A stretch of DNA of 50,105 bases, taken from contig QHSL01000043.1 in assembly GCA_003220435.1 (NCBI GenBank), positions 1 to 50,105 of the forward strand. Direction: 5' to 3'. The DNA comes from Candidatus Rokuibacteriota bacterium (GTDB lineage: Bacteria; Methylomirabilota; Methylomirabilia; Rokubacteriales; CSP1-6). The notes under the pieces were generated by a model that worked only from the letters and a program-made list of their open reading frames with translations, made no database searches and was not told where the DNA came from. Position 1 is the first letter of the stretch; every line of letters starts with the position of its first letter. The translations under genes and the position numbers were made by a program. Below, piece after piece: positions 2,098 through 33,824 of this stretch.

Positions 2098-3169
2098 CGA
2101 GGAACGCTCGAGCCGAGTCGATCCAGCTGAACCGACGTACGTGCGCCAGGATCGCGTCCTCGTCGAAATGGCGCTTTCTCACCTCGACCAAGGCCCGAGC
2201 CAGGCCGTCAGGATCGTTTGGATCGAACAGCAGGCCGACCTCTTCATTCACGACGTCCTTCAAGAATCCCCGGGCCATCGAGACCACCGGTCGGCCGAAG
2301 CTGAAGGCCAGGATGACCGACCCGGATGTGAGGACCTCGAGGTAGGGCAGCACCATGCAATCGCAGGCGAGCAGGAAGTCCTGGATCTCGTCGTCCGGGA
2401 TGTACTGCGGATAGAGTCTGATCCGCGCGTCGCCCTCGGCGAGGGCCACGATCTTTCGCCGGTACTCGTCGCGCTGGAACTGGCCGGCGATCAGCAGCAG
2501 CGAGTCGCCGGACAGTGCGCGGAAGGCCTCGATCAGCCCGTGGACGTTCTTGTAGTGCTTGCACTGACCGATGAACAGAAGCACGTGGGCTTCCGGTGCG
2601 ATTCCGAGCTTTGCTCGCGCCTGCAGCCGAGACCGTGTGCGTGGGTAGAGGTCGAACACGGGCCCGTGCTGAAGGAGGGGGGTGAGCTTGCGCTTCACCT
2701 GGGGGAAGCGCGCCTCGACGATCGCCGCGGCGCTCGGGCCGTGAACGAAGATGCGGTGGCTGAGCGCGATGACGATCCATCGCCCCAGGCGATCCATGCC
2801 GGGAAACGGCGTCGGGTCGTGCGGCATCACATTGTGCGCGGTCCAGACCAATCGGGCACCGCAGAGCCGCGCGAGCAGCAGCAAGGCCACGAACCGGGCG
2901 AACGACCGGAGCAGCCCGAGCCGTGAGCGCGCCGACGCATAGAGGAAGGACGGCCACTGCAGGTGCAGGACGTCGCCCGGGCGCAGCTCGCGCCAGAGCC
3001 AGCTCCCCTCGAACACGCCCTCGATGACCTGGGCTCCGAGGTTCTCGAGCGCCGGATAGAAGCACCGGTCATAGGCGTGGTCGTGGCGGGTCAGCGCGAC
3101 GACCCGGGTGCGCGCGCGCACGGGCGGATGGACGCCCACCGTGACGACCTCGGTCGACACCACGCTCAC
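2081..3169 (-). CDS. Family 4-type (GT-B) glycosyltransferase
   Basis: A 362-residue GT-B glycosyltransferase expected to act on a lipid-linked glycan at the inner membrane. LHLQWPSF and RLVWTAHNVMPHDP in the N-terminal half resemble the acceptor domain of GumK/mannosyltransferase-like enzymes. The C-terminal half has VLLFIGQCKHYKNVHGLIEA, then LPYLEVLTSGSVILAFSFGR, where the usual E-x7-E nucleotide-sugar motif would be; only the first Glu is clear. The hydrophobic patch FVALLLLARLCGARLVW may touch the membrane. The start is GTG at 3169 in a GTGA overlap with the stop of the upstream gene. Donor and linkage are not predictable. Confidence 0.85.
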   Translation of the reverse strand: MSVVSTEVVTVGVHPPVRARTRVVALTRHDHAYDRCFYPALENLGAQVIEGVFEGSWLWRELRPGDVLHLQWPSFLYASARSRLGLLRSFARFVALLLLARLCGARLVWTAHNVMPHDPTPFPGMDRLGRWIVIALSHRIFVHGPSAAAIVEARFPQVKRKLTPLLQHGPVFDLYPRTRSRLQARAKLGIAPEAHVLLFIGQCKHYKNVHGLIEAFRALSGDSLLLIAGQFQRDEYRRKIVALAEGDARIRLYPQYIPDDEIQDFLLACDCMVLPYLEVLTSGSVILAFSFGRPVVSMARGFLKDVVNEEVGLLFDPNDPDGLARALVEVRKRHFDEDAILAHVRRFSWIDSARAFLDGLDA

Positions 3170-4149
3170 CGCGCCGACTCGGCTCCCTGCGTCGCGCGTC
3201 TGAGCCAGATCTCGTGCCAGTACGGATAGATGTTACGCGGGCAGAACAGTCGGTTCGTGCTGAAGCACCCGCTGCACGTCACGTCGTCGAGGATCAAGCA
3301 GGCGCTGCGCATCCGGAGCATCCGGCCGGTCCGATCGTCGACGATCCGCTCGACCCGGCGGAGCACGCGGAAGGTCCGGCCGCAGAAGGGCAGCATCTCC
3401 ACGTCGAACGCGAGCCCTCGGTTCTTGCGGTCGCCGTCCAGCGTGGGCATGATCTCCGCTTTCGATCGGACCTGCACCAGCTCGCCGGGCTGGAGGTCGA
3501 GCACTTCCTTCGGCGTCTTGTCCCGGGCGAGCCCGCGCACGTTCGGGTACGGCCGGAGGCGCCAGTGCCGGCGCATCAGGGCGTTGAACATCGCGAGCGG
3601 CACGTAGCGAAGGAAATCCCGCAGCCGCACGTTGCCGGAGAGGAGATCCCGCGCGTACTGCCGCGGATCCCACCAGCGGAGCGGCGCGGTCGCCCGTAGC
3701 AGCTCGGTCGCCTGGCAGCGATAGCGCTCCTCGCCGTCGTCGCCGGCCGGCGCGCGGGTCGCGCGCGCGAGCGCCTCGCGATCGCAGCCGGCAGGTCCCG
3801 TCGGCGACACCGGCGCGGACCGCGGGTGTCCGTTGGACGCGGCGGCCGTCGCGGGTCGGAGCCACGCTGCTTTCCAGAACAGGAGACAGCCGGCCTGGCA
3901 TCCCCCGTGCGCGCCGCCGTCGCACCGCAGCCCCTCGAGGTGCACCGCGTCTGTCATGGACCGCCCGTGATAGGTCTTGATCGTGTCGCAGGTCTTGTGC
4001 GCCGCTTTGAACACGCGGAAGCGCCGGCCGCAGTACTGGAGCATCTCCGGCATGAACGGCAGCGCGTCGAGCTCGCCGCGATCGTCGAGCGTCGCCTGGA
4101 TCTCCTCGGCGCTCCTCACCTCGACCCAGTCGCCGGCGCGCAGGCTCAT
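3166..4149 (-). CDS. Unrecognised cysteine-rich protein with an internal duplication
   Basis: No function recognised. The 327-residue protein consists of two diverged copies of one unit. Residues 6-55 (GDWVEVRSAEEIQATLD, later MLQYCGRRFRVFK) align with 222-272 (GELVQVRSKAEIMPTLD, later MLPFCGRTFRVLR). Each copy then has a Cys cluster and ends in W...WLR: C76, C84, C88 before WKAAWLR, and C284, C292, C295, C303 before YWHEIWLR. The Cys spacing suggests a metal or Fe-S site, but no known motif fits exactly. There is no signal peptide or clear membrane segment, so it is probably cytoplasmic. Its ATG abuts the stop of the Wzt-like gene and its end overlaps a glycosyltransferase start, so it is made together with the export and assembly genes. 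Confidence 0.8.
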   Translation of the reverse strand: MSLRAGDWVEVRSAEEIQATLDDRGELDALPFMPEMLQYCGRRFRVFKAAHKTCDTIKTYHGRSMTDAVHLEGLRCDGGAHGGCQAGCLLFWKAAWLRPATAAASNGHPRSAPVSPTGPAGCDREALARATRAPAGDDGEERYRCQATELLRATAPLRWWDPRQYARDLLSGNVRLRDFLRYVPLAMFNALMRRHWRLRPYPNVRGLARDKTPKEVLDLQPGELVQVRSKAEIMPTLDGDRKNRGLAFDVEMLPFCGRTFRVLRRVERIVDDRTGRMLRMRSACLILDDVTCSGCFSTNRLFCPRNIYPYWHEIWLRRATQGAESAR

Positions 4150-5358
4150 CTATTCGATGTCGAAGGCCGCGAGCCGCGGCTGGAGCGTCACGACGCCGCG
4201 CACCTCCGGCGCTCCGGTGACGAAGAAGGTGGCGGCCGAGTGCCAGCCGTCGTAGTTCGTGCTGGTGACGTAGCGGTAGAGAAACGCGTCCACGTGGAAC
4301 GTGCCTTCGGCGAGGTGCAGGTTCAGCTCGAAGGTGCACGAGACGGCCTGGCCGGCCTCGAGGTTGATGGGGCCCGCGCCCAACCGCTGGGTGCAGGTGT
4401 CGAAGACCGGATAGCGGTGGTCGTCGACGATCCGGATGACCACGGCCAGGTCTTCGTGGCGGGTCCGGGCGCGCGCCTCGACCGTCAGGCGCAGCTTGCC
4501 GCCCGACTCGAACTCGACGCGGGGGCCGGCGTCGTCGTGCGTCGTGACGCGAGTGAGCACCACGCCCGTCTCGGCGTCGATCGCACGCTGCTCCTGGCTC
4601 CGGCTGAAGTAAGTCCGGATCACCTCGGCGGTCGGGCCGATCAGCTGGACCCGGCCCTTCTCGAGCAGGAGGCTGCGCCGGCAGAGGTTCGCGACCTCGC
4701 GGAGGTTGTGCGAGACGAAGACGACGGTGGCGCCGTTCGCGATCACCGAGTTCATGCGCTCGACGCACTTGCGCTGGAACAGATAGTCGCCGACGCTCAG
4801 CACCTCGTCGACCAGCAGCACGTCGGGGTCGACGTGGGCAGCCACCGAGAAGCCGAGCCGGGCGTACATGCCCGACGAGTAGCGCTTGACCGGGGTGTCG
4901 ACGAACTCCTCGAGCCCGGAGAACTCGACGATCGCGTCGAAGCGCCGCCGGATCTCGTCGCGCTTCATGCCGAGGATGGCGCCGTTGAGGTAGATGTTCT
5001 CGCGCCCGGTCAGATCGGGGTGAAAGCCGGCGCTGACCTCGATGAGCGCCGAGATGCGCCCGGCGACGCGGATCGACCCGCTGGTCGGGCGCATGATGCC
5101 GGTGAGGAGCTTCAGGATCGTGCTCTTGCCGGCGCCGTTGCCGCCGATGATCCCGAACGCCTCCCCGCGCTGGATGCTGAACGAGACGTCCTGGAGCGCC
5201 CAGAAGTCACGCTGCTCGAGCTGCCCCGGGCCCTCGCGGCGCGCCAGGCGGCGCGTGAGCCCCGGGATCAAGTCGCGCAGCGAGGTGTAGAGCTCGCCAC
5301 GCCGGAACTTCTTGAACAACCCCTGAACGTCGAGAACGGTGTCGGCCATGGTTGTCAT
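4150..5358 (-). CDS. wzt: ABC transporter ATPase of polysaccharide export, Wzt type
   Basis: Powers export of a lipid-linked polysaccharide through the Wzm pore. Walker A is IGGNGAGKST (71-80), the signature is YSSGMYARLGF (160-170), Walker B is VLLVDEVLSVGD (180-191), and the switch His is in VFVSHN. At 402 residues it is longer than a bare ATPase. The extra C-terminal part (about 270-402) is beta-rich and matches the Wzt C-terminal domain, which in known systems binds the modified non-reducing end of the O-polysaccharide and selects finished chains. The ATG at 5358 overlaps the permease stop (ATGA). Family assignment is firm; the exported polymer is inferred. Confidence 0.95.
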   Translation of the reverse strand: MTTMADTVLDVQGLFKKFRRGELYTSLRDLIPGLTRRLARREGPGQLEQRDFWALQDVSFSIQRGEAFGIIGGNGAGKSTILKLLTGIMRPTSGSIRVAGRISALIEVSAGFHPDLTGRENIYLNGAILGMKRDEIRRRFDAIVEFSGLEEFVDTPVKRYSSGMYARLGFSVAAHVDPDVLLVDEVLSVGDYLFQRKCVERMNSVIANGATVVFVSHNLREVANLCRRSLLLEKGRVQLIGPTAEVIRTYFSRSQEQRAIDAETGVVLTRVTTHDDAGPRVEFESGGKLRLTVEARARTRHEDLAVVIRIVDDHRYPVFDTCTQRLGAGPINLEAGQAVSCTFELNLHLAEGTFHVDAFLYRYVTSTNYDGWHSAATFFVTGAPEVRGVVTLQPRLAAFDIE

Positions 5359-6149
5359 ACGCTTTCAGCGAAGAAGGGCTCGAGCTTCCTGAACATGAGC
5401 ACGGAGGCCGTGAAGAGCAGCGCCGTCATGAAGAGGCTGTAGACGATCCAGAGAACTGGCGGGCCCTGATGCAGAATGACCGTCGTCGAGAGCCCTTCCA
5501 GCAGGGGCGACACGGGATTGACGAGCAAGACGGGGGCCCACCGACCGAACAGCGCCGAGTCGTAGAAGACCGGCGTGAAGAAGATGGCGAACGTCAGGAA
5601 CACCTCCACGAGGTACTTCACATCGCGGAAGAAGAGGCTGGCAGCCGAGAACAAGATGGCGAGCGCCATCGCGAGCACGATCAGGGACAGGAGCAGCACC
5701 GGGAGCCAGAGGAGGTACACGCTGAGCCCCACGCGCGCGACCCCGAGCACGACGCCGATGACGACGCCGGCGATCAGGAAATCGATGAGCTGCGAGAACA
5801 CCGCGGCCAGCGGAAAGATCAGCCGCGGCAGGTAGATCTTGGTGACCAGGTTGGCGTTGGTGACGAGGCTGTTCGTCCCGAAGCGCAGCGCGGACACGAA
5901 GAACGCCCACGGCGCCGCCTTCACCGTCACGGACGTGAAGTCCGACATCGCCAGGGGCGTGCCGGAGGCGGTCGCGAAGGCGTAGCGGACGACGAGCCCG
6001 GCGCACACGATGACCAGTGGCATCAGGACCGCCCAGAGCATGCCCATGACGGACTGCTTGTACTTCACCTTGATCTCGCGCCAGGTGATCATGTAGAGGA
6101 GATCGCGGTGATCGAGGATCTCCCGCAGCGAATGACGCATTTCGTTCAT
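5355..6149 (-). CDS. wzm: ABC-2 type polysaccharide export permease, Wzm type
   Basis: Inner-membrane pore partner of the Wzt ATPase. It has 264 residues, about the usual length, with six hydrophobic segments after an N-terminal amphipathic stretch containing LLYMITWREIKVKYKQSV, typical of Wzm/TagG/KpsM permeases. A late PVFYDSALFG and LLVNPVSPLLEGL fit the family. ATG at 6149 is given, but ATG at 6140 has the better-placed AGGA (8 bases upstream) and may be the real start. Its start faces the plus-strand VanZ-like gene with only 8 bases between the two ATGs, so any promoter for this end of the locus would lie inside the neighbour. Confidence 0.93.
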   Translation of the reverse strand: MNEMRHSLREILDHRDLLYMITWREIKVKYKQSVMGMLWAVLMPLVIVCAGLVVRYAFATASGTPLAMSDFTSVTVKAAPWAFFVSALRFGTNSLVTNANLVTKIYLPRLIFPLAAVFSQLIDFLIAGVVIGVVLGVARVGLSVYLLWLPVLLLSLIVLAMALAILFSAASLFFRDVKYLVEVFLTFAIFFTPVFYDSALFGRWAPVLLVNPVSPLLEGLSTTVILHQGPPVLWIVYSLFMTALLFTASVLMFRKLEPFFAESV

Positions 6150-6157
6150 CCTACCGT

Positions 6158-7324
6158 ATGAGGGCGTCGCGCCTGTTCTTGATTCTCTGGCTCGGCGTGA
6201 TTTCCGGATCGACGCTGGTCCCCGTCGGAGGGGTGGAGCAAGTTCCCTCGTTCTTTTGCGTGCTGTGCGGCCACGGGGCGGTGGCCGACATTCTGTTGAA
6301 CGTGGCGCTGTTCCTCCCGCTGGGCCTGGCCCTGAGCGCCGACGGCTGGCGGCCGCTCCGCGCCCTCACACTGGGCGCGGCGTTCTCGCTCGCGATCGAG
6401 ATCGCGCAGTTCGCCATTCCCGGGCGCGACCCGAGCCTGTCCGACGTGCTGTCCAACACGCTGGGGACGGCGCTCGGCATCGGGCTCGTGCGCTCTGCTC
6501 GCGTCTGGTGGCGGCCCGGCCCACGACTCGCGAACGCTCTCGCGATCGCCGCCGCGGGCGCCGCGACGGCGGTGCTGGTCTCCACGGGCGCGCTGTTCGC
6601 GCCGTCGTTTCCGGAAGACACCTACTACGCCGGATGGACCCCGCGATTCGGCCACCTCGCATGGTACGGCGGTCGTGTCCAGGACGTCGCGCTCGACGAC
6701 TTCCCGCTTCCCGAAGGGCGGATCGCCGCGTCGGCTCAGGTGCGCCAGCATCTCGCGTTGCCGTACGTGCTCGTCGTGCGCGCCCGCGCCGGGCCGCACC
6801 CGGCAGGCCTCGCTCCCCTGTTCACGATCAACGACCGCCACACGCGCGAGATCGTGCTGGTCGGCGTCCGCGGGGATGATCTTGTCTACCGCTATCGAAC
6901 ACGCGCCGTCGCCTGGGGGCTCAGGGCGCCCGCGATCCGCGTCCGCGGCGCCCTGCGCGACGTCGCCGCGCAGAGCCCCCTGCTGATCACGGTTCGCCGA
7001 ACGAGCTCCACCTACTGCCTTACCGTGAACACGGCGGAGCGCTGCGGACTCGGCCACACGCCCGGTGGAGCCTGGGCGCTGGTCCTGGGCGGCCAGCCCA
7101 TTCCGATCTGGCTTCAACCCGCGCTCCCGATCGTCTGGCTCGCCGCGTTGTTCGTCCCGATCGGCCTGTGGGCGCGGCTCGACCTGGCGTCCGCGCTCGC
7201 CATCGCCCTCCCGCTCGCTACCGCCATTCTGCTCGCTCCGCCGGTCGAGACTCTCGGCGCAGTGGCGGGGCTCGTCGCCGGAGGGCTGAGCGCGCACGCG
7301 CGACTCAAATCAGGCGCTCCCTGA
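6158..7324 (+). CDS. VanZ-like membrane protein with an extracytoplasmic LamG-like insert
   Basis: A 388-residue membrane protein, one of the few genes on the plus strand. Residues 1-115 form a VanZ domain: short helices with ILLNVALFLPLGLAL and SLAIEIAQFAIPGRDPSLSD, where the acidic residues are conserved in the family. A further helix (about 124-147) leads to a roughly 180-residue soluble segment rich in beta strands that resembles concanavalin/LamG folds (YCLTVNTAERCG near its end). Two or three C-terminal helices close the protein. VanZ family members are linked to glycopeptide tolerance and cell-envelope glycan handling, but most have no known activity. No clear ribosome site precedes the ATG. 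Its 3' end overlaps the convergent heparinase-like gene by 20 bases. Confidence 0.8.
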   Translation: MRASRLFLILWLGVISGSTLVPVGGVEQVPSFFCVLCGHGAVADILLNVALFLPLGLALSADGWRPLRALTLGAAFSLAIEIAQFAIPGRDPSLSDVLSNTLGTALGIGLVRSARVWWRPGPRLANALAIAAAGAATAVLVSTGALFAPSFPEDTYYAGWTPRFGHLAWYGGRVQDVALDDFPLPEGRIAASAQVRQHLALPYVLVVRARAGPHPAGLAPLFTINDRHTREIVLVGVRGDDLVYRYRTRAVAWGLRAPAIRVRGALRDVAAQSPLLITVRRTSSTYCLTVNTAERCGLGHTPGGAWALVLGGQPIPIWLQPALPIVWLAALFVPIGLWARLDLASALAIALPLATAILLAPPVETLGAVAGLVAGGLSAHARLKSGAP

Positions 7325-9554
7325 TGACGACGAGCCAGGCTCCGAGGCCGATCCAGGCGATCATGCTGAGGCCTCGCAGAAGGGCGTAGCGGCCGCGCGT
7401 GTAGTACGCGCCCGCGAGCCTCGCGTAAGCCGCGAAGAAGAGTTCTTGCAGCAGCAGGGCGCCGATCACGACGTACGTGGCCTTGAGTCGGTAGTCGATC
7501 ACGTCCCGGAACGGCGGGTACTTGGCGATCGCTCGCTGATAAGACGCTCGAATCTCGGCGATCTTCTGGTCGACACTCTCCGGCCGCGCCAGCATGACGT
7601 GCACCGGGTCGCGGGCGCCGCCTGCTCGCACGAAGACCTTGTCCACCTCGCGCGACAACTCGACGGTGCCCTTCTCCGCCGGCACCAGGAGCGTCCACTT
7701 CTCCGGCCCGGCCCATGCGCGCATCTCGGGCTGAGCGACCACCCGCCGAGCACCGGGGCGGTCATCGCTCAACGACCAGACGGTCGCCGCCCACGCGTCG
7801 TTCGCCGGCTGCTCGACCACGATCGCGGACGCGGGGCGGCCGCCCGCGGGGCCGGCAAGCCAGCCGACGAACGGGGCCTCGCTGCCTCGATACGCTCGCG
7901 CGCTCGTGCCGGCCGAACCGACGATGAACGCCGTGAGCGCGTCGCCCGTCGACACTTGTCGAAGCTCCCACGACGCGGCAACGGGCCCGTCGCTCATCGT
8001 GACCTCATAGGTGGTGGTCCACACGGTCGTCGTCCGGTCGCCCGGCCTGCCCGTCGTGTGGTCGAGCACCAGCCAGAGCGTCTTGTCGGCGTGAAGGACC
8101 TGCCGGCGCGCCGTGTACCCGTTCGGCCCCTTCCGCTCGAGGTCGATGTACGCCACGCCTTCCGTCGCGGCCTCGGCAAGCATTCGCGTCGTCCGGAGGC
8201 TGGCGTCGCTCTCGCCGGCGAGATGAGGCGCGTTCGACCCGCCCCACGACTCGGCTTCGCGCCGCCCGCCGACGCCGTAGGGCCAGTACCCGACATTCGT
8301 CCACCACGTGCTTCCCCTGGCCCAGAGCAGGACGCTCATCTCGTCGGCGAGCTTGTGCGCCTGGCCGGGGAAATACGACCAGGCGACAACCGTCTGGGCG
8401 AGCTCCCGTGACGCCGGCCAGCGCTGGAGCCCATCCCACCAGACCGAGTAGCCGGTGACCGGATACGACACATGGACCCGCGCAGGCGACCAGTCGGCCC
8501 GGTGGTGCAGCGGCGCCGCCCGCCCGTCATCGCCAAGATCGGTAACAGCCGGGCAGCGGGCGTTCGGTCCGTGGCCGGTGTCGCCGAACACGGGCAGCGA
8601 TCCGTCAGGGCGCCGCAGCTCGGCATAGACGTCAGCGGCGCGGCGATATTTCTCCCGCCACTCGGCGGGAATCGGAATATCCAGCAGCGACAAGTACCGG
8701 AACGCCAGGCTGAGGAACTGCACGCCGGCCTCGTGGTAGCCGGCCGAGTGCTCGAGCACGACGCCCTCGTCGTTCACGTAGAAGGCCATCTGCTCGCGCA
8801 GCCGCTCGAGGGCGAGCTGCCGATATCGCGACGCGTCCGGGAGAGACGGGAACGCGACGCTCAGGTGCCAGAGGGCCAGGTTCTGCATCACGCCGTGATT
8901 CGTCGCGACGGTGAAGTGCGAGGGATCGGCCAGCAATCGGCCGCTGCGCGCGACGAAGGTGAGGACGTCTCGGGCCGTCTGCGCGTCGTAGCGCGGGTGA
9001 TGGCGGTAGAGCGTCCAGAACTCGGCCAGCGCCAGCATCCGCTCGGCGACCGCATGGTCGTTCCAGAGCTTCCCCTTCGGGAGCACCGTACGCCGCTCGT
9101 AGCTCGCCAGGCCGAGGATCATGTCGCGCGCGGCGAACAGAAAATCGTCCCGCCCCGTGATGCGGTAGGCTCCGAGCAACACGCGCGGAACGACAAGAGT
9201 GGACAGACGCAGCTGCCAGCTCGGTGGCCCCTGGTCGATGTCTCGGGGATCGAACTGGAGGCTGATCTTCCGAGGACTTTCCCCCGGCAGGGCAAGCTCG
9301 CCCTGGAGAATGCGCTCGGCGACCGCGACCGTCTGGGCGCGGTCGAGCGCCGCGAACTCGTTCGCAAAGAAGCGAATGCCGCTGAGCTCGTCGAGGACCG
9401 GGTCGGCGGGTGCCTCGCGGGCCTGGTCGATCAGGGCGGCCGTGATGGTCGGCCTTGAGACGTAGTAGTGGTCGACAAGGGAGAACCAGATCGCGCCCAA
9501 GACGAAACCAGGCAGGCTATAGTAAAACGCACGCCGGAGGAGAAAAATAATCAT
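7305..9554 (-). CDS. Heparinase II/III-alginate lyase-like protein, membrane anchored
   Basis: A likely polysaccharide lyase or EPS-processing enzyme of 749 residues. An N-terminal helix (about 5-27) anchors it, and two more helices at the C-terminus (about 690-715 and 727-745) are unusual for the family. The alpha/alpha-toroid part has LWNDHAVAERMLAL and TNHGVMQNLALWHLS, followed by VLEHSAGYHEAG, which match the conserved Asn/His/Tyr regions of heparinase II/III and PL15/17 enzymes. The beta-sandwich part follows (about 400-660). Such proteins near EPS genes may trim uronic-acid-containing polymer in the periplasm, which suits the AlgD-like dehydrogenase at 17.3 kb. Substrate is inferred; the gene may equally be a processing rather than a degrading enzyme. 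Confidence 0.82.
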   Translation of the reverse strand: MIIFLLRRAFYYSLPGFVLGAIWFSLVDHYYVSRPTITAALIDQAREAPADPVLDELSGIRFFANEFAALDRAQTVAVAERILQGELALPGESPRKISLQFDPRDIDQGPPSWQLRLSTLVVPRVLLGAYRITGRDDFLFAARDMILGLASYERRTVLPKGKLWNDHAVAERMLALAEFWTLYRHHPRYDAQTARDVLTFVARSGRLLADPSHFTVATNHGVMQNLALWHLSVAFPSLPDASRYRQLALERLREQMAFYVNDEGVVLEHSAGYHEAGVQFLSLAFRYLSLLDIPIPAEWREKYRRAADVYAELRRPDGSLPVFGDTGHGPNARCPAVTDLGDDGRAAPLHHRADWSPARVHVSYPVTGYSVWWDGLQRWPASRELAQTVVAWSYFPGQAHKLADEMSVLLWARGSTWWTNVGYWPYGVGGRREAESWGGSNAPHLAGESDASLRTTRMLAEAATEGVAYIDLERKGPNGYTARRQVLHADKTLWLVLDHTTGRPGDRTTTVWTTTYEVTMSDGPVAASWELRQVSTGDALTAFIVGSAGTSARAYRGSEAPFVGWLAGPAGGRPASAIVVEQPANDAWAATVWSLSDDRPGARRVVAQPEMRAWAGPEKWTLLVPAEKGTVELSREVDKVFVRAGGARDPVHVMLARPESVDQKIAEIRASYQRAIAKYPPFRDVIDYRLKATYVVIGALLLQELFFAAYARLAGAYYTRGRYALLRGLSMIAWIGLGAWLVVIRERLI

Positions 9555-9602: not shown

Positions 9603-10778
9603 CTAGGCGTGGCGCAAGTAGAGCTGTTCATAGCTTCGCGCCATTATCGCGGCGCTGAATTCACGGTCAAACAGCGTTCGGCCATTGCGGCCGAACTCCT
9701 CGCGTTGGCGGCGGTCACTCAGCAATCCGATAACGCGCGTCGCGAGCGCATCCGGATCCCTGGCTGGGACGAGATAGCCGTTGTAGCCGTCGCGCACCGC
9801 GTCGGGGTTGCCGCCCACGTTGGTTGCCACAATGGGGCATCCCGCGGCCATCGCTTCGAGCAACACCATAGGTAGACCTTCCCAGATCGACGGTAGGACG
9901 TAAACGTCGAACAGCTGAAGAATGTCCGGCATGTCTGTACGCGGCCCAAGGAAGTGCACGTGTGAGCCAACTCCCACACGCTGCGCTTCTTCCTCGAGGT
10001 TCCGCCGAAGCGGCCCGTCACCGGCGATCACGAGCCTCAAGTCTCGTTGCGCTCGTAGCACCGCCGGTAGAGCTTGGAGCAGGAAGGTAAGCCCTTTCTG
10101 CTCCGTCAGCCTGGCGGCGAGGCCGATGACCGGGGCCGAGCTTGGGATGCCGAGCTCCGCGCGCTTTGCAAATTTGTTGATGGGACGCTGAAACGTGTCG
10201 CCGACTACGCCATTTCTTATCGTTACGATCTTCTTTGGCGAGATCTTTTCGTAGTCGACCAGGTTCTTTGAGGTTTCGTTCGAAACTCCTACTATCCGAT
10301 ATACCCAGTGCGATAGTACCCACTCTGCGAACATGTACCTGCGCTTGTCAGGAAACTGTCGGGCGTGATCGGTGTGTACTATCGTGCGGACACCGCCGAC
10401 GAGTAATCCACCGAGGGTCCCATCTACAAGTGGCTGAGTGTTGTGAGTGTGTATGACGTCGAATTTGCGGTCGCGTAGGAACTTGGCGACCTTGAGGAAA
10501 GAAAAATAGTCGGTATGCCGCGGATTCTGTGGCAGGACCGTCACGGGTATGCCCAGACGCTCGATCTCGGGTGCGAACTCACCTGGAGCGCGAAGGCAAA
10601 GGACTTCGATGTCGAAGATGCTTCGGTTGAGAGTCCGACACAGGTTTACAACGACTTGTTGCAGACCACCGATTGCCAGATCGTGGGTGATCTGCAGCAA
10701 TCTGATCTTGGGGGCGCTCGAACGTGACGACCGACGATCGGTTCGGTCGGCGTTTGCGAGAGCTGTTGACGAGGTCAA
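9603..10778 (-). CDS. Family 4 glycosyltransferase
   Basis: A 391-residue GT-B retaining glycosyltransferase. HDLAIGGLQQVVVNLC near the N-terminus is the typical glycine-rich GT4 opening, VIGLAARLTEQKGLTFLLQA begins the donor domain, and LPSIWEGLPMVLLEAMAAG holds the E-x7-E donor-binding motif. The layout resembles glycosyltransferases associated with exosortase systems, but I cannot assign a subfamily. The start is TTG at 10778, overlapping the stop of the upstream ligase/polymerase gene (TTGA). Base composition is clearly poorer in GC than in the genes further left and right (28 of 60 bases are G or C at 10201-10260), shared with the next gene upstream. Confidence 0.9.
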   Translation of the reverse strand: MTSSTALANADRTDRRSSRSSAPKIRLLQITHDLAIGGLQQVVVNLCRTLNRSIFDIEVLCLRAPGEFAPEIERLGIPVTVLPQNPRHTDYFSFLKVAKFLRDRKFDVIHTHNTQPLVDGTLGGLLVGGVRTIVHTDHARQFPDKRRYMFAEWVLSHWVYRIVGVSNETSKNLVDYEKISPKKIVTIRNGVVGDTFQRPINKFAKRAELGIPSSAPVIGLAARLTEQKGLTFLLQALPAVLRAQRDLRLVIAGDGPLRRNLEEEAQRVGVGSHVHFLGPRTDMPDILQLFDVYVLPSIWEGLPMVLLEAMAAGCPIVATNVGGNPDAVRDGYNGYLVPARDPDALATRVIGLLSDRRQREEFGRNGRTLFDREFSAAIMARSYEQLYLRHA

Positions 10779-12109
10779 CGGAGTCCCGTTGGGTTCTCAC
10801 CTCGAGCCTGCTCGACCGCCATGCGATGAGAGGCGACGGTCAAACCAGTGAGGTAGTAGAGATGAGGAAAATCTAGGACAGAAAGAAACGTCGCTGATAC
10901 GAGAAACCCGACCCAGCTCGCCTGGAGCGACGACGCAAGCAACCCAAGCGAAGCTACCACGTCTCCACGTTTGCTGAGGCGAACAACCTGGCTCAGGCAG
11001 CGAAAGTTGAGCACCAGAGTCGAGCCGATCAATACGACACCCACTATCCCGAACTCGGCAAGAAGTTGGAAGTACATGCTGTGAACGGCCTTTCCCCACA
11101 GATTCTCGCGCATTTCCGGCGCAAAATCGAGACCGTAGTTTGGGACATGTATGCCGAAATTGTTTGCGCCGACCCCCCAAATCGGCGAATCGTAAAACAT
11201 CCCTCGTGCGGCGGCCCAAAGGGATTGCCTTTCCCACGCGGTGCCTTGGTCCGTTGCCGCTATGGTCGATATCCGGTCCCAGTACTGCGGTGGGGCGACA
11301 ACCGCGACCAGGATGATTCCCGAGATCAAAGCGAGAATCGCTAGCTGCCTCCTTTGGCTGATGATGACCCAATAGATCGCCATGGCAGCCAAGCCGACGA
11401 AGCCGCCTCGCGAGAAAGTGAAGACCGAAGTCAAGACGAGGACCGCAGAAGCTCCCCTCCACAGCAGACGCGGGACTCCGGACCGCGCCTGGACGGCCAG
11501 ATAGAGAGCAAAGGGAAGAATGACGTTAATCGCAAGCGCAAAATCGTTCTCGTCCTTCAAGAACCCCCCACCGACGTAGCCTGTGGAGGCATATCCGACG
11601 TCATTGTATTGTGTGTGAAGAAAGGCCAGGATGCCTCCGAAACTCAGATAGACGTGAATGACTACGAGCACAGCCAGCAGCTTTTTGAAGTCCCGAGGAT
11701 CGCGGAGAAGGTAGGCGATCGCTAGAAACCCGATCATCGTCACTGCTACGGTGTAAGTGAATTTGTACGCCCGGAACCAATTCGCGGCATAGAGCGCGGA
11801 GAGCCCGGAGAGCGCCACGAAGCCGAGCAATAGCCAAGTTTGTCCTGCGATTCGTGCAGAGCCGTTCAATACCCGTGGGATCGTCACAATGAGGAGGAGT
11901 GCAAGTGCGACCCCTGGCAGTTGCAGGGCGCCGAGAGGAGGCCAGAAGGTTTGAGGACGCAAGTACTCGAGCACGATGTGGCATAGCAGGAGACCCATGG
12001 CGAACCGGGTCGGCCCCACAAGCGATCGTCGGATAGCGATGCCCGAGTCTTGGGGACGCGAGCCCGGGCCAATCGCAGGGTCTTTTCGCGGAAGTAGAGC
12101 GTCACTCAT
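10775..12109 (-). CDS. O-antigen ligase/polymerase (Wzy-type) membrane protein
   Basis: A polytopic inner-membrane enzyme, 444 residues from the ATG at 12109 (a TTG at 12139 would add 10). It joins lipid-linked repeat units (Wzy) or ligates glycans to acceptors. About ten to twelve hydrophobic helices are visible. Family marks are FTFSRGGFVGLAAM, WGVGANNFGIHVPNYG in the large periplasmic loop, and HSMYFQLLAEFGIVG after it. The early YLRPQTFWPPLG resembles the putative ligases associated with exosortase A systems. With Wza- and Wzz-like genes in the same locus, polymerase is the better reading, but sequence alone does not separate polymerase from ligase. It lies in the GC-poor stretch. Confidence 0.85.
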   Translation of the reverse strand: MSDALLPRKDPAIGPGSRPQDSGIAIRRSLVGPTRFAMGLLLCHIVLEYLRPQTFWPPLGALQLPGVALALLLIVTIPRVLNGSARIAGQTWLLLGFVALSGLSALYAANWFRAYKFTYTVAVTMIGFLAIAYLLRDPRDFKKLLAVLVVIHVYLSFGGILAFLHTQYNDVGYASTGYVGGGFLKDENDFALAINVILPFALYLAVQARSGVPRLLWRGASAVLVLTSVFTFSRGGFVGLAAMAIYWVIISQRRQLAILALISGIILVAVVAPPQYWDRISTIAATDQGTAWERQSLWAAARGMFYDSPIWGVGANNFGIHVPNYGLDFAPEMRENLWGKAVHSMYFQLLAEFGIVGVVLIGSTLVLNFRCLSQVVRLSKRGDVVASLGLLASSLQASWVGFLVSATFLSVLDFPHLYYLTGLTVASHRMAVEQARGENPTGLR

Positions 12110-12139
12110 CAGAAACACCGTACGCCAATTCCGCTCCAA

Positions 12140-27746: not shown

Positions 27747-28774
27747 GCCCGGATCCACCTCAGCGTCTCGTCGATTCGCTGCTCGGCTTGAAGCTTCTTG
27801 ATCTGCTTGAGGCGGAGGTACTTCGTGCTCTGGAACTCGTCGATGGTCAGCCCGTGCTCCTTGAACGCGCCGTAGAGCTGCTCGACGCCGCGGCGCACGG
27901 TCCACTGCGGCCGGAACTCCGGGAGCGTCCGGGCGATCTTGTCGCAGTTCACCCGGTAGCAGCGCGGGTCGGGCCCGCCGCCCTCGGCGTACCTGATCCG
28001 GCTGCCGGGGACGACGTCCTTCACCATGTCGGCGACGTCCCGGATCTGATAGTTCTCGGCCGTCCGGCCCACGTTGAACGACTGGTTGTGGACGAGCTCG
28101 CGGGGCGCCTGCAGCACGGCCAGGAACGCGCGCGAGATGTCCTCGATGTGCACCAGCGGCCGCCAGGGCGTGCCGTCGCTCGCGATCAGCACCTCGCCGG
28201 TCGTGTACGCGAACGCGACCAGGTTGTTGACGACGAGATCGCCGCGGAGCCGCGGCGAGACACCGTATGCCGTGGCGTTGCGCAGGAAGGTCGGACTGAA
28301 CGTCTCGTCCGCGAGGGGCGACACGTCCTGCTCGACGCGGACCTTGGACGTGCCGTAGGCCGTGACCGGGTTGAACGCGGCGTCCTCGGCCAGGAGCCCG
28401 TCGCCGGCCGCGACGCCGTAGAGGCTGCACGAGGACGAGAACAGGAAGCGCCCGACGCCCGCCTCCTTCGCCAGCCGGGCCAGGCGCACCGAGGCCCGAT
28501 GGTTGATGTCGTAGGTGCAGTCGGGGTTCAGGTCGCCCAGCGGGTCGTTGGACAGCGCGGCCAGGTGCAGGACCGCGTCGAAGCCCGCCAGCGCCTCCAC
28601 GCCGATCTCGCGGAGATCGGCGCGGAGCGTGGGCACCTCGGCGAGGCCGTCGCTGAAGTCGCAGCCCGCGAAGAATTCGGTGTCGAGACCGACGACCTCG
28701 TGGCCGGCCGTCCTCAGCATGGGGACGAGCACGGCGCCGATGTAGCCGGTGTGGCCGGTGACGAGAACCTTCAT
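27743..28774 (-). CDS. NAD-dependent nucleotide-sugar epimerase/dehydratase
   Basis: A 343-residue extended SDR. The Rossmann motif is VTGHTGYIG at the N-terminus, then LHLAALSNDPLGDLNP, SSSCSLYG and the catalytic AYGTSKVRVE (Tyr and Lys intact). FNVGRTAENYQIRDVADMV belongs to the C-terminal sugar-binding part. Substrate is not predictable; since a cytidylyltransferase lies two genes upstream, a CDP-sugar is possible. ATG at 28774 overlaps the stop of the PIG-L gene (ATGA), and its own stop overlaps the exosortase GTG. A longer in-frame reading to 29128 runs through the PIG-L gene and is rejected. Confidence 0.88.
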   Translation of the reverse strand: MKVLVTGHTGYIGAVLVPMLRTAGHEVVGLDTEFFAGCDFSDGLAEVPTLRADLREIGVEALAGFDAVLHLAALSNDPLGDLNPDCTYDINHRASVRLARLAKEAGVGRFLFSSSCSLYGVAAGDGLLAEDAAFNPVTAYGTSKVRVEQDVSPLADETFSPTFLRNATAYGVSPRLRGDLVVNNLVAFAYTTGEVLIASDGTPWRPLVHIEDISRAFLAVLQAPRELVHNQSFNVGRTAENYQIRDVADMVKDVVPGSRIRYAEGGGPDPRCYRVNCDKIARTLPEFRPQWTVRRGVEQLYGAFKEHGLTIDEFQSTKYLRLKQIKKLQAEQRIDETLRWIRA

Positions 28775-29454
28775 CGAGTCTCCAATCCCAGGACGGCCTT
28801 GCGGCAATAGAAGCCCTCGGCAAACGCCGTCGGCGAGTTCGCCTCCATGCCGCGCAGGCGGAGGAGGGCCGTGAACAGATCGCGCGAAAACCAGGTGTGG
28901 TCGACCTGGCTCCGGTAGCAGTCGAGGATGGAGTCGATCTTTCGCTGGCAGATCGCCTCCTCGAGCGGGACGAACGTGTTGGGCGCGCCGAGATCGCCGT
29001 CGTACTTGGGGATCTCGTACTCGAGAATCAGGTGGCGCCGGAACGTGTTCCAGGTCAGCTCGGAGATCAGCCGGTGGTCCTGGTGCAGGTCGTTGCGGTA
29101 GTGCGTGAGGACGAGATCGGGGGTGCACGTGCGCTTCAGCCGCTCGAACTCGTCCTTGATCTCGCCGCCGATGTACGGAAAGAAGCCGTCCCGGAAGGAC
29201 ATCACCGTGACGGTCTTCTCCTTGGCGGCGGCCAGGAACGCATCGGCGCTCGCCCGGGCCTCACGCTCCCGCTCGGGCGTCGAGCTCCACACCACCCAGT
29301 CCACCGCGACGTTGCGCAGCTGCTCTGTCAGCGCCAGCACGGTGCCGCCGCAGCCGATCTCGATGTCGTCGCAGTGGGCGCCGAGGCAGAGCACCCGCAG
29401 CGGGCGGTCGGACGGGACGTTCGGGACGAGCGACAGCATCGACGTGGCGCTCAC
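28771..29454 (-). CDS. PIG-L family deacetylase
   Basis: A 227-residue zinc-dependent N-deacetylase of the PIG-L/MshB fold. LGAHCDDIEIGCGG (residues 25-38) supplies the AHxDD zinc site, and HYRNDLHQDHRLIS supplies the second His pair. VVWSSTPERE follows the first strand as in sugar deacetylases of polysaccharide loci. It probably deacetylates an N-acetylated nucleotide sugar or lipid-linked sugar. GTG at 29454 overlaps the stop of the upstream gene (GTGA) and gives 227 residues; ATG at 29439 would remove five. Short, no membrane segment, so cytoplasmic. Confidence 0.88.
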   Translation of the reverse strand: MSATSMLSLVPNVPSDRPLRVLCLGAHCDDIEIGCGGTVLALTEQLRNVAVDWVVWSSTPEREREARASADAFLAAAKEKTVTVMSFRDGFFPYIGGEIKDEFERLKRTCTPDLVLTHYRNDLHQDHRLISELTWNTFRRHLILEYEIPKYDGDLGAPNTFVPLEEAICQRKIDSILDCYRSQVDHTWFSRDLFTALLRLRGMEANSPTAFAEGFYCRKAVLGLETR

Positions 29455-30275
29455 CGGCCCGCCGTCACCGCGCGGCCGTCGCGCGCCGGGCCGCGCCCGT
29501 TCCCCTTCCAGAGCTCCCACGGGGCGCCGCCGCGCGCGTACAGCTCGTCGAGCACCTGCTTGTCCTTGAAGGTATCCATGCACGCCCAGAAGCCGTCGTA
29601 CTGGAACGCGACCAGCTGTTGGGCCTTGAGCAAGCGCTGGAAGGGCTCGTGGAGCAGCTCCTCTCCCGCCTTGATGTGCTCGAAGATGCTCTGCTTGAAC
29701 ACGAAGTACCCGCCGTTGATCCGGAGATTCGCCTGCTGGACGTCGGCGATGGACTGGACGAGCCCGTCGGGGCTGGCGGACACGAAGTGAACGCTCAGGT
29801 TGGGCCGGACGCACGCGAAGCTGGCGATCTTGTCCTTGCGGTGGAAGTCGGCCAGCTGGGCGTCGAGCGGCAGATCGGTCAGCCCGTCGGCGTAGTTGGC
29901 CAGGAACACCTCCTCGCCCGCCACGTGCTTCTCGACGGCCTTGAGGCGCTGGCCGATGTTCGAGGTCGTCCCCGTGTCGACGAAGGTGATCCGCCAGTCG
30001 TGGATGTCGCTGTTCAGGAGCTCGAGGTCCTTGCCGCCGCCGGAGAGGACGAAGTCGTTCGAGAGGCACTCGCTGTACGTGAGGAAGTAGTTCTTGATCA
30101 CGTCCGCGCCGAATCCGAGGCACAGGATGAAGTCGGTGTGTCCGTAGTGGGCGTAGTACTTCATCACGTGCCACAGGATCGGGCGGTACCCGATGTTCAC
30201 CATCGGCTTCGGGATGTGCTCCGAGTACTCCCGCAACCGCATGCCGAGACCGCCGCAGAACAGAACGACTTTCAT
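29451..30275 (-). CDS. rfbF: Sugar-1-phosphate cytidylyltransferase-like nucleotidyltransferase
   Basis: Makes a nucleotide sugar, probably CDP-glucose, from the sugar-1-phosphate. The 274 residues match glucose-1-phosphate cytidylyltransferase over most of their length: VVLFCGGLGMRLREYSEHIP, KPMVNIGYRPILWHVMKYYA, FVDTGTTSNIGQRLKAVEKH, NYADGLTDLPL, and FQYDGFWACMDTFKDK near the end. The last ~25 residues (from GRGPARDG) are low-complexity. No CDP-glucose 4,6-dehydratase follows, which is the usual partner, so the product may enter another route. ATG at 30275; GTGA overlap with the next gene. Confidence 0.85.
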   Translation of the reverse strand: MKVVLFCGGLGMRLREYSEHIPKPMVNIGYRPILWHVMKYYAHYGHTDFILCLGFGADVIKNYFLTYSECLSNDFVLSGGGKDLELLNSDIHDWRITFVDTGTTSNIGQRLKAVEKHVAGEEVFLANYADGLTDLPLDAQLADFHRKDKIASFACVRPNLSVHFVSASPDGLVQSIADVQQANLRINGGYFVFKQSIFEHIKAGEELLHEPFQRLLKAQQLVAFQYDGFWACMDTFKDKQVLDELYARGGAPWELWKGNGRGPARDGRAVTAGR

Positions 30276-30300
30276 GCCGGGGACCTCCCGTTCACCTGCG

Positions 30301-31032
30301 TCAATACGACTTGATCGCCGGCCGCATAGCGATCTCCGTCACTTCGGCCCTGGCCGGCAGCGTCAACACGTGCGTCACGGTCGCCGCGACGTCGTCGGGG
30401 CTCAGCAGGAGCTCGGGCCGATACGGCCGGTTCTCCGCCTGGAAGATCGCCGCCTGGCGTGGGGTGGCCGTGCGCCCGAGGTAGATGCTGAGCACCCGAA
30501 CGCCGTCGGCATTCACCTCGTCCCGGAGGCTGTCGGCGATCGCCTTCACGGCGTGCTGGGTCGCCGCGAACTGGCCGACCGTCGCGCGAGCCTTCAATCC
30601 GACCGTCGAGTTGATGAAGATGACGTCGCCGCCGCGCTTCTTGAGCATCGGCAGCAGCCCCTGGGTCAGGGCGTACGGCCCACGCACGTTGGCGCGATAT
30701 TGGCGGTCGAGGTCGGCCACCGACGCGCTGTCGACGGCGCCCGAGGCGATCGCGCCCGCGCTGTGGACGAGGACGTCGACGCGCCCGAAGTCTCGCTCGA
30801 TCGCGGCGACGAGCTCGGCGATGTCGCCGTCGTCGGTGAGATCGGTGCGATAGGCGCGGGCCCGCGACCTGGCCGGGCCGGCGGCCCGCACGACCTCGTC
30901 CAGCGCCTCCACCCGGCGGGCCACCAGACAGACGGTCGCCCCGGCGGCGGCGAGGTGCAGCGCGATCGCCCGGCCGATCCCGCTGGATGCGCCGGTCACC
31001 ACCGCGACCCGCTCGGCGAGTCCACCGCTCAT
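30301..31032 (-). CDS. Short-chain dehydrogenase-like protein lacking the catalytic Tyr and Lys
   Basis: A 243-residue classical SDR fold. The cofactor motif VVTGASSGIG (11-20), the SAG near 91-93 and Asn115 are present. In the active site, where YxxxK is expected, the sequence reads QFAATQH: Phe155 replaces Tyr and Gln159 replaces Lys. Ser142 (INSTVG) is kept. Loss of both key residues suggests that it is no longer an oxidoreductase of the usual type and may bind a nucleotide or serve as a partner. The reading was checked on the opposite strand. ATG at 31032 overlaps the stop of the PhyH-like gene (ATGA). Probably cytoplasmic. Confidence 0.88.
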   Translation of the reverse strand: MSGGLAERVAVVTGASSGIGRAIALHLAAAGATVCLVARRVEALDEVVRAAGPARSRARAYRTDLTDDGDIAELVAAIERDFGRVDVLVHSAGAIASGAVDSASVADLDRQYRANVRGPYALTQGLLPMLKKRGGDVIFINSTVGLKARATVGQFAATQHAVKAIADSLRDEVNADGVRVLSIYLGRTATPRQAAIFQAENRPYRPELLLSPDDVAATVTHVLTLPARAEVTEIAMRPAIKSY

Positions 31033-31943
31033 CGGCCGGTCCCGACTCCAGACGCGGCCTCGGGGGCCGGGGTGTCGTAGAGAGCTATCAGGTCCTCGGG
31101 GAGATGGCTGAGGTCGCTCGCCCGGAGGTAGTCGCGCATCGTGGTGCCGGTGCAGTCCGAGTCGATGTTCGGCGCGCCCGCGCGGCTCTGGACGTCGTCG
31201 AGGTGCACGGTTCTGAAATCGATGCTGAACCGCGTGTAGCCCGACGTGTTCGGCACCGTCGAGTGCAGGTGCGCGCCCGAGAACACGAGCAGGCCCCCGA
31301 CCTGCGCGATCACCCTGATCTGCGGGTCGAGCTCGACTGGCTCCTCGGGTTTCGGCTGCTTGCGCGTGTCGCTCTTGATGTGCTGCGCCGCCGTCTTGCG
31401 GCTGGTACGGTTCCACTCGTCGTAGTTGTACTCGCGCGAGCCGTTGCGGACCGGCTGGCTCCAGTACCGCAGGTGGAACGCCATCGAGTTCGCGGGCTCG
31501 ATGTCGTAGATCGGCATCCAGAAGTTGATTTGCGAGAACGGCGCCGAGTACCAGGTGTCGCGGTGCGGGTGGAAGGCGTACGCGATGCCGGTGGTGAGGT
31601 AGTCGCCGTGCGTCGCCGAGCGCATCCGGGGGACGTCGAAGTAGGTCTTGTGCGGGTCGCACCCGAGCTCGCCGAGGATCCCCTGGATGAACTGCTTGGA
31701 CTTCGGGTGGTGGATGAACGCCGGCTTCAGCTCCGCCAGGATCGCGGCGTACTTCTCCACCGGGAGGTCGTACTGCGCCGTGCGTGGGTCCCGGGGCGCG
31801 AAGGCGTCCGCGATCATCGAGCGCGCGTGATCGCAGAGCCCGAGCGAGCTCGGACCCGCCGAATACACGAACAGCTGCCCCTGATAGAGCTGCTTGCGCC
31901 GGGTGTCGTCGTCCACACGAGCATCGAAGAAGATCGCGTCCAT
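31029..31943 (-). CDS. Phytanoyl-CoA dioxygenase-like Fe(II) oxygenase
   Basis: A 304-residue protein of the PhyH-like cupin type, expected to hydroxylate a substrate with 2-oxoglutarate and O2. The iron site is HPHRD (H127, D129) with the distal His in FSGAHLHST (225 or 227), followed by an Arg in YTRFSIDFR for the oxoacid. Such enzymes modify sugars or lipids in antibiotic and polysaccharide clusters. Its ATG overlaps the stop of the DUF4910 gene by one base (TGATG). The upstream in-frame extension through the neighbour is not real. Substrate unknown; it may act on a nucleotide sugar of the surrounding block. Confidence 0.8.
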   Translation of the reverse strand: MDAIFFDARVDDDTRRKQLYQGQLFVYSAGPSSLGLCDHARSMIADAFAPRDPRTAQYDLPVEKYAAILAELKPAFIHHPKSKQFIQGILGELGCDPHKTYFDVPRMRSATHGDYLTTGIAYAFHPHRDTWYSAPFSQINFWMPIYDIEPANSMAFHLRYWSQPVRNGSREYNYDEWNRTSRKTAAQHIKSDTRKQPKPEEPVELDPQIRVIAQVGGLLVFSGAHLHSTVPNTSGYTRFSIDFRTVHLDDVQSRAGAPNIDSDCTGTTMRDYLRASDLSHLPEDLIALYDTPAPEAASGVGTGR

Positions 31944-33286
31944 CAGACCGCCCTCCGTGGATTCGCAGCGCCGGGAGTCGTCGTCACCGGCTCGAGCAGC
32001 TGGTGTTGGTGGAGAAGGTCGGCAGCGCGCCGGATCGGCTCGAACGCGCAGCCCGAGCGCTCGGCGATGTCGAGCAGCGAGTGGCGGCCGTCCGAGAGGT
32101 TCAGCACCCACAGCATGGCGAGCTCGCTGGCGGCGGCGTCGGTGCCGCCGATGGTCCGGTAGATGCCGCGCCGCCCGAGCTGGGGCTCGCACTTCGGGTT
32201 GAGGTTGAGGTACGTCCGGTTGTGCTCGAGCGCCGAGAGCACCGCTCGCACGGTCGTGTACGAGTCGGCCAGCGCCTCCGGCCGCACGAAGTCGAGGTTG
32301 TCGGCCGACGTGTGGTACTCGGGGAACCGGCTGTGCGGCGTGCGCATGAAGCAGCCGACGGGCAGGTCGAACCCCGGCGAGCAGAACTGGCGCTCGTCGT
32401 AGCCGTACGGCGAGAAGTCGAGGATCTCGCTGCGACGGCCCGAGTGCTTGAGCACCCACGCGACGGTCCGGTCGATCTCGGCGTCGCCACGGCGGCTCTT
32501 CTTGTAGGTCAACGGTCCGGGGTCGCCCGCGCAGGCCAGGACGAGGCCGTGGCGGATGTTCGCGGTCGCCGCCTCGTTGCGGCTGAGCCACGTGATCGAC
32601 CCGATCGTGCCTGGAATAAAGAGGAACCGGTACGAGTAGCGCCGCGGCTGCTCGGCGAGGTGCCTGGCCAGCGCCACGGCCAGGGCCACGCCGGCCATGT
32701 TGTCGTTGGCCAGCGACGGGTGGCAGACGTGGCACGAGAGCAGGACCTCGTCGGTCGTCTCCCCGGGCAGCAGGTACTCGCCGTACGTCAGGTGACCCGG
32801 CACGAGGGTCGAGTCGATGCACACCTCGTACTCGTCCTCGGTCAGGTCGGCCAGACGATTGTGGGCGAGGCAGAAGCCCCAGGTCTCGTTGTAGTAGGAC
32901 GTCCGCCACGGGATCCAGTCCGGTCGGTCCGGGAGCGTGTGCAGGTGCTTGGCCAGCTCCTCGCGCGAGACGCGCCGGCGCACCGGCACGCTGTAGCCGA
33001 CGACGTGGAGGTTCGACCGCTGGAAGTCGATGACGCGCTCGCCCCGGCCGTTCTTCACCCACGCGTCGGCGACGTTCCACTCCTTCGGCACCGTCCAGTC
33101 GAACACCGGGGTCCCGGTCGGCACCTCGTGGATCGCCAGCGAGATGTGCTTCTGCACGAGACGCAGGGTCTCGCGGACGCCGTTGCCGGTGATGCTCCGG
33201 CAGATCGGATAGAGCTCGGCGACCAGGCGATGCATCTCGTGGCCGATCTCGTCCGGGTTCACCGCGGCGGGAGTGAAAGACGTCAT
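31943..33286 (-). CDS. DUF4910 aminopeptidase-like protein
   Basis: A 447-residue protein of the aminopeptidase-like DUF4910 family, common in sugar-modification clusters next to rfbC, PIG-L and C-methyltransferase genes. LYPICRSITGNGVRETLRL starts the domain. Likely metal ligands are SCHVCHPSLANDNMAG (His and Asp) and EYHTSADNLDFV (His, Asp), with a Glu in SRNEAAT between them. The C-terminus (from about 380) is a winged-helix-like tail. Activity on peptides is not shown for the family; hydrolysis of an amide on a sugar is possible. ATG at 33286 was chosen over 33391 because it fits the family's length and does not extend into the RfbC gene. Confidence 0.82.
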   Translation of the reverse strand: MTSFTPAAVNPDEIGHEMHRLVAELYPICRSITGNGVRETLRLVQKHISLAIHEVPTGTPVFDWTVPKEWNVADAWVKNGRGERVIDFQRSNLHVVGYSVPVRRRVSREELAKHLHTLPDRPDWIPWRTSYYNETWGFCLAHNRLADLTEDEYEVCIDSTLVPGHLTYGEYLLPGETTDEVLLSCHVCHPSLANDNMAGVALAVALARHLAEQPRRYSYRFLFIPGTIGSITWLSRNEAATANIRHGLVLACAGDPGPLTYKKSRRGDAEIDRTVAWVLKHSGRRSEILDFSPYGYDERQFCSPGFDLPVGCFMRTPHSRFPEYHTSADNLDFVRPEALADSYTTVRAVLSALEHNRTYLNLNPKCEPQLGRRGIYRTIGGTDAAASELAMLWVLNLSDGRHSLLDIAERSGCAFEPIRRAADLLHQHQLLEPVTTTPGAANPRRAV

Positions 33287-33293
33287 GGGGGGC

Positions 33294-33824
33294 TCAGCCC
33301 GCGAAGTCCGGGTAGGCACGGTCACGGTCGTTGATGATCCGGTCGGCGTCCGGCCAGACGATGCCGAAGGCGGGATCGTCCCACCGCACACCCCGCGCCG
33401 ACTCCGGCGAGTAGAACTCCGACATCTGGTAGAAGATCTCGGTGCCGTCCTCGAGCGTCTGGAACCCGTGGGCGAACCCCTCGGGGACGTAGAGCATCCG
33501 GCGGTTCTTGGCGCTCAGGCCGGCCGCGAAGTGCCCGCGGAAGGTCGGTGAGTCGCGGCGGAGGTCGACGATCACGTCGTGCAGCGCGCCGGCCGTGCAG
33601 CGTACCAGCTTCGCCTCCTCGTGCGGCGCCGCCTGATAGTGCAGCCCGCGCAGGGTCCCACGGCGCCGGTTGAACGAGACGCTGCACTGCACCAGCCGGG
33701 GGTTGAGCCCGTGCTGCTCGGCCTCGCGCTGGCACCAGGTGCGCGCGAAGAAGCCGCGGGCGTCCGCCAGGGGCTCGGGCTCGATCACGAAGGCGCCCTT
33801 GAGCGGGGTCTCGGTGAAGATCAC
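33294..33824 (-). CDS. rfbC: dTDP-4-dehydrorhamnose 3,5-epimerase family protein
   Basis: A 176-residue cupin epimerase, the normal length. ADARGFFARTW holds the start of the conserved region, FNRRRGTLRGLHYQ the catalytic His, and RDSPTFRGHF, VPEGFAHGFQTLED and EIFYQMSEFYSPESARGVRW the rest of the site (Tyr and Asp present). The enzyme epimerises a 4-keto sugar nucleotide. No rmlA, rmlB or rmlD lies in the window, so it may work on a CDP- or dTDP-sugar made elsewhere or act at one carbon only. The start is GTG at 33824, in a GTGA overlap with the adenylation protein; longer readings in this frame overlap that gene. Confidence 0.9.
   Translation of the reverse strand: MIFTETPLKGAFVIEPEPLADARGFFARTWCQREAEQHGLNPRLVQCSVSFNRRRGTLRGLHYQAAPHEEAKLVRCTAGALHDVIVDLRRDSPTFRGHFAAGLSAKNRRMLYVPEGFAHGFQTLEDGTEIFYQMSEFYSPESARGVRWDDPAFGIVWPDADRIINDRDRAYPDFAG

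Follow-up and report, generated by a model that had tools for sequence, protein, structure and literature searches.

A duplicated cysteine-rich protein encoded in bacterial surface-polysaccharide loci and tied to a sugar cassette

What is the task of a protein whose gene is wedged between the genes of a glycan exporter and a glycosyltransferase? The question is raised by a locus in a stretch of 50,105 nucleotides from Candidatus Rokuibacteriota (hereafter the window), in which a minus-strand gene at 3166–4149 encodes a 327-residue protein predicted to consist of a pair of SH3-like repeats joined by a basic linker. The GC content of this reading frame by codon position (0.68/0.53/0.91) matches that of coding frames from high-GC genomes, and the gene is genuine. 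Immediately upstream on the same strand are the genes of a Wzt-type ABC transporter ATPase with a Wzt_C domain (4150–5358) and a Wzm-type ABC-2 permease (5355–6149), and downstream, also on the minus strand, is that of a glycosyltransferase (PF00534; 2081–3169). The stop codon of wzt ends at 4150 and the ATG start of the protein gene lies at 4149, leaving no spacer, and the TGA of the protein gene shares four bases (3166–3169) with the GTG start of the glycosyltransferase gene. These junctions bear out the placement of the gene between Wzt and a glycosyltransferase with zero spacing, as given in a preliminary description made from the sequence alone, and they support the co-translation with export genes that it proposed. 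The same locus holds, besides the Wzm/Wzt pair (4150–6149, minus strand), a Wzy_C protein of the O-antigen ligase/polymerase type (10775–12139, minus strand), and the cluster representative of the MOP flippases gave no match within the window.

In terms of architecture, the protein can be divided into an N-terminal repeat (residues 1–102; 3844–4149, minus strand) with Cys40, Cys54, Cys76, Cys84, and Cys88, a linker (residues 103–215; 3505–3843, minus strand) with an invariant Cys145-Gln146 pair and helices at 162–170 and 176–196, and a C-terminal repeat (residues 216–322; 3184–3504, minus strand) with Cys256, Cys292, Cys303, and NRG and W-x3-W motifs. BLASTP aligns the two halves with 32% identity over 111 residues (E = 1e-16), and comparison of the family profiles of the two halves covers 101 columns with 99.9% probability (E = 2.4e-31), against just 0.0–2.2% for ten column-shuffled control profiles. 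The earlier reading of two diverged copies of one unit is thereby confirmed, as are the motifs VRS..EI..TLD, CG..FRV, and W...WLR and the basic character of the linker, whose residues 160–215 bear a net charge of +8. A transmembrane linker was considered and rejected, as the hydropathy of the linker helix is too low in most members (median 0.88; above 1.6 in 8 of 85).

Three cysteines pair between the repeats (Cys40 with Cys256, Cys76 with Cys292, and Cys84 with Cys303), whereas Cys54 and Cys88 are confined to the N-terminal half and Cys145 to the linker. Seven cysteines show no variation at all in the 84–85 aligned sequences: Cys54, Cys76, Cys84, Cys88, and Cys145 occur in every one of the 84 rows covering those positions, and Cys292 and Cys303 in 85 of 85. 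Cys256 (84 of 85 rows) and Cys40 (79 of 84) are less strict. Judged from this conservation, a metal site in the protein is plausible. The motif of the CDGSH iron-sulfur domain is C-x-C-x2-[ST]-x3-P-x-C-D-G-[SAT]-H, and such a domain was rejected: the stretch RCDGGAHGGC of the protein has no upstream C-x-C, and its histidine comes one place later and is replaced by tyrosine in 20 of 84 sequences.

The full-length AlphaFold model has a pLDDT of 93 and a pTM of 0.89, and the N-terminal half modeled alone has a pLDDT of 89; two alignment rows from the plasmid collection were omitted entirely from the structure modeling. For each half, the best-ranked solved structure is an SH3 repeat of Mind bomb 1 (Pfam PF18346; PDB 4xi6, 4xi7, and 4tse): 4xi6 for the N-terminal half (Z = 7.7, 69 residues, 2.3 Å) and 4tse for the C-terminal half (Z = 7.1, 74 residues, 3.2 Å). 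The preliminary description had expected the halves to share one structure, and in the predicted models the same solved fold is indeed the best match of both. These Z-scores of 7.1–7.7 stand about 0.8–1.3 above the next unrelated rows yet fall below 8, a range in which a match may reflect a common barrel alone. SH3-like barrels of ribosomal and other proteins come next, at Z of about 6, and given these and the modest scores we claim a fold class and not common descent. In sequence, the PF18346 gathering cut-off of 24 bits compares with 13.1–13.8 bits for the members shown singly, and the window protein gives no match. Mind bomb 1 has been co-crystallized with a ligand-tail peptide, as the title of entry 4xi7 states. 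Unlike Mind bomb, the protein has no ubiquitin-ligase parts, carries invariant cysteines, and occurs in a bacterial polysaccharide setting. With the whole model as query, the top Foldseek rows are the C-terminal SH3-like domain of the nitrile hydratase beta subunit (E = 7.6e-3; the top row has 15% identity and a TM-score of 0.18; Z = 5.7–6.0 over 83–84 residues), a likeness that is probably that of the common barrel only.

No characterized family claims the protein, as the preliminary description had surmised: the window protein has no match over the curated cut-offs of Pfam, NCBIfam, or PHROGs. Pfam searches of 88 relatives give weak matches at most, foremost to the Mind bomb SH3 repeat (26 of 88, best E = 2e-4), and searches for solved relatives with full-length, N-half, and C-half profiles return chance-level matches alone. 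A viral or phage origin was rejected, as IMG/VR and phage records contain no relatives, and our literature search found no paper describing the protein or its job. It is nonetheless not an orphan. A scan of GTDB contigs finds 412 relatives, and the best 80, which were retained for analysis, span at least 10 phyla, with representatives in Actinomycetota, Acidobacteriota, Pseudomonadota, Nitrospirota, Verrucomicrobiota, Myxococcota, Planctomycetota, Gemmatimonadota, Eisenbacteria, and Rokubacteria. The protein represents a new family, unnamed in the searched libraries, whose fold class is known.

The seven invariant cysteines and the absence of an obvious set of catalytic residues would suit a cysteine sensor (redox, zinc, or Fe-S) that toggles polymer synthesis or export post-translationally, as would the single copy of the gene and its translational coupling with the exporter in the window. 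Domain searches of the protein and its relatives found no DNA-binding or known signaling domain, however, and no regulator gene regularly adjoins the protein gene in the neighborhoods, so that we regard a sensor as unlikely.

The neighborhoods were compared in the 59 relatives whose DNA exceeded 15 kb (long loci). Neighbor genes were called with a home-made script using homology support and clustered, and cluster representatives were named via Pfam and NCBIfam. An MOP flippase is found in 47 of the 59 long loci, a Wzt-like protein in 7, and a Wzm-like protein in 3; the ABC exporter of O-antigen and capsule glycans that lies directly upstream in the window is thus reachable in a minority of relatives. 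The preliminary description had tied the protein to the Wzm/Wzt glycan specifically, a role that this survey leads us to reject. Its more particular idea, a factor for the chain length or terminal residue (capping) of ABC-exported glycans, agrees with the position of the window gene between that of a Wzt with a Wzt_C domain and that of a glycosyltransferase, and Wzm/Wzt genes lie near the protein gene in two relatives (L044 and L077) as well. Most relatives, however, reside in MOP-flippase loci, some of which carry a Wzz-like gene of their own, and chain-end recognition by Wzt therefore cannot be the purpose of the protein in most of them. We consider capping quite unlikely. The other nameable neighbors are for the most part polysaccharide genes.

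The companion that the preliminary description missed is a sugar-nucleotide cassette, which the window carries 24–34 kb from the protein gene, at about 27.7–37.8 kb and on the same strand. It encodes an NAD-dependent epimerase/dehydratase-like protein (27758–28774) and a PIG-L deacetylase (28789–29415), 57% and 52% identical, respectively, to their counterparts in relative L088, followed by a glucose-1-phosphate-cytidylyltransferase-like nucleotidyltransferase (29505–30317), a DUF4910 protein (31994–33247), an RmlC-type 3,5-epimerase (33309–33824), and a C-methyltransferase (PF08421 and PF08484; 36427–37806), all on the minus strand. Linked to the cassette is a further protein (31071–31943, minus strand), which is 70% identical to a copy from Acidobacteria (L018), has no Pfam match at 1e-4, and may, to judge by its sequence, be a 2-oxoglutarate dioxygenase.

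Out of the 59 long loci, the counts are 42 for the nucleotidyltransferase, 40 for PIG-L, 37 for RmlC, 34 for the epimerase, 30 for the C-methyltransferase, and 23 for DUF4910; in 40 loci, no fewer than three cassette genes lie within 10 kb of the protein gene. Where the retrieved locus was missing most of the cassette, 17 of 20 genomes have a close nucleotidyltransferase (48–67% identity). Comparison of contig coordinates puts it 12–26 kb from the protein gene in six of these cases, the same contig being assumed for records without displayed contig numbering. In the phylum of the window, a close nucleotidyltransferase occurs in 8 of 95 genomes, including all three main-type genomes (hypergeometric P = 0.0004), and in five genomes it is present while the protein is absent. 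The protein family is strongly tied to the sugar cassette. The link is not absolute, as a divergent clade of four copies from the window's own family (L003–L006; 36–40% identical) keeps the invariant cysteines, and searches of their genomes found neither a close nucleotidyltransferase nor DUF4910; the neighbors of this clade are epimerase/oxidoreductase, asparagine-synthase-like, or cupin genes.

Das et al. (2014; PMC4000134) proposed a link between DUF4910 and a modified sugar of the cell surface, and the neighborhoods described there resemble the present ones in their nucleotidyltransferase, epimerase, methylase, and exporter genes; the account of these neighborhoods in that paper does not mention the protein. 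The nucleotidyltransferase, epimerase, methyltransferase, and DUF4910 that together mark such a locus are all found in the window. DUF4910 is tied less tightly to the protein than is the nucleotidyltransferase, and, unlike the described neighborhoods, the protein is found in DUF4910-free genomes too. An assignment to the bradyrhizose cluster of photosynthetic Bradyrhizobium (PMC4743980) was rejected, the gdh primer site given in that paper and the protein gene being on different contigs in the three Bradyrhizobium genomes in which the site turned up.

The position of the gene within its loci was compared with 2000 random simulations in the 49 loci left after dereplication at 65% identity. The protein gene adjoins an exporter gene in 14 of 35 exporter-bearing loci (random mean 5.8; 0 of 2000 simulations as high) and a GT2 gene in 13 of 32 GT2-bearing loci (random mean 6.3; P = 0.0035), figures to be read against a crude null, in that gene calls were home-made, the protein is always centered in the retrieved DNA, and the loci were picked by similarity to the window protein. 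Proximity to NTPt, CMeT, RmlC, and DUF4910, which served as internal controls, shows no enrichment over random in the same 49 loci. Together, these results indicate that the occurrence of the protein tracks the sugar, and its position tracks the exporter and glycosyltransferase.

We tentatively propose that the protein is a cytoplasmic, metal-stabilized tandem-SH3 adaptor that couples glycosyltransferases to the exporter of polymers containing the cassette sugar. It would be an accessory to surface-polysaccharide assembly on the cytoplasmic side, in which two Mind-bomb-type SH3-like barrels, each probably held by a cysteine-bound metal (zinc or Fe-S), are joined by a helical basic linker that could rest on the membrane. 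As an adaptor or regulatory subunit, most likely non-catalytic, it would dock glycosyltransferases onto the exporter of the lipid-linked glycan, which would be an MOP flippase in most species and Wzm/Wzt in the window, and it would serve those polymers whose sugar comes from the nucleotidyltransferase/PIG-L/RmlC cassette. This proposal starts from the observed duplication, conserved cysteines, polysaccharide loci, cassette link, and exporter and GT2 adjacency, and from a fold that is predicted. More broadly, the protein could be the founding example of a widespread class of tandem-SH3 adaptors, loaded with a metal or an Fe-S center, that would open or close glycan export according to redox or metal state in flippase and ABC pathways alike, a generalization that we regard as improbable.

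Against the adaptor, the near-invariant polar residues of the alignment (Lys52, Arg75, Gln146, Asn243, Arg244, Arg305, and Glu313) would suit an enzyme equally well. It is somewhat doubtful that the protein is such a new kind of enzyme, one that would carry out a single reaction on either the cassette sugar or the lipid-linked glycan and whose cysteines would bind a metal for catalysis or structure. The near-universal companionship of a close nucleotidyltransferase, the frequent presence of PIG-L, and the co-occurrence in all three main-type genomes of the phylum are consistent with this alternative. The sugar-nucleotide enzymes are not enriched as neighbors, however, and the five genomes with a close nucleotidyltransferase and no protein, as well as the divergent clade that does without the cassette, point away from it. 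SH3-like barrels on their own are seldom catalytic, which also counts against an enzyme.

The copy number is exactly one in each of 22 genomes searched, the genome of the window has one copy, and the gene is also carried on plasmid records of Mesorhizobium and Bosea. In the phylum of the window, the protein is found in 8 of 95 genomes, one of them through a short broken stretch. In the tree, the window copy clusters with one from Eisenbacteria (support 88) and, at a wider level, with Rhodococcus and Gordonia; the other main-type copy from Rokubacteria, which comes from a genome of the same genus (G007), is placed elsewhere. This placement suggests transfer along with polysaccharide islands. 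Such patchy spread and tree placement would also be expected of a mere passenger gene that travels with polysaccharide islands and has no role in the polymer, but the exporter and GT2 adjacency kept across phyla, the strong sequence conservation, and the single copy per genome make a passenger very improbable. A third genome belonging to the genus of the window (G002, contig C200; L103, 2146–4117) has the protein gene immediately adjoining nucleotidyltransferase and PIG-L genes, and the contig end cuts the locus off.

The family is wider than the preliminary description supposed, and its main partner, the sugar cassette, is a different one. A conserved protein in polysaccharide loci of at least 10 phyla that is missing from the searched family libraries points to an unrecognized assembly or export step for certain surface polymers. 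Being tied to a single sugar cassette as well as to both routes of export, the protein can be tested directly in culturable hosts, among them Bradyrhizobium, Mesorhizobium, Gordonia, and Nonomuraea.

Three further genes of the window lie in or near the polysaccharide locus. A heparinase II/III-like protein is encoded inside it (7305–9554, minus strand), and a NusG-domain protein on its upstream side (43130–43855, minus strand) is possibly an RfaH-like operon antiterminator. Adjoining the exporter genes on the opposite strand is an open reading frame (6158–7324, plus strand) whose product we take to resemble VanZ-like membrane proteins.
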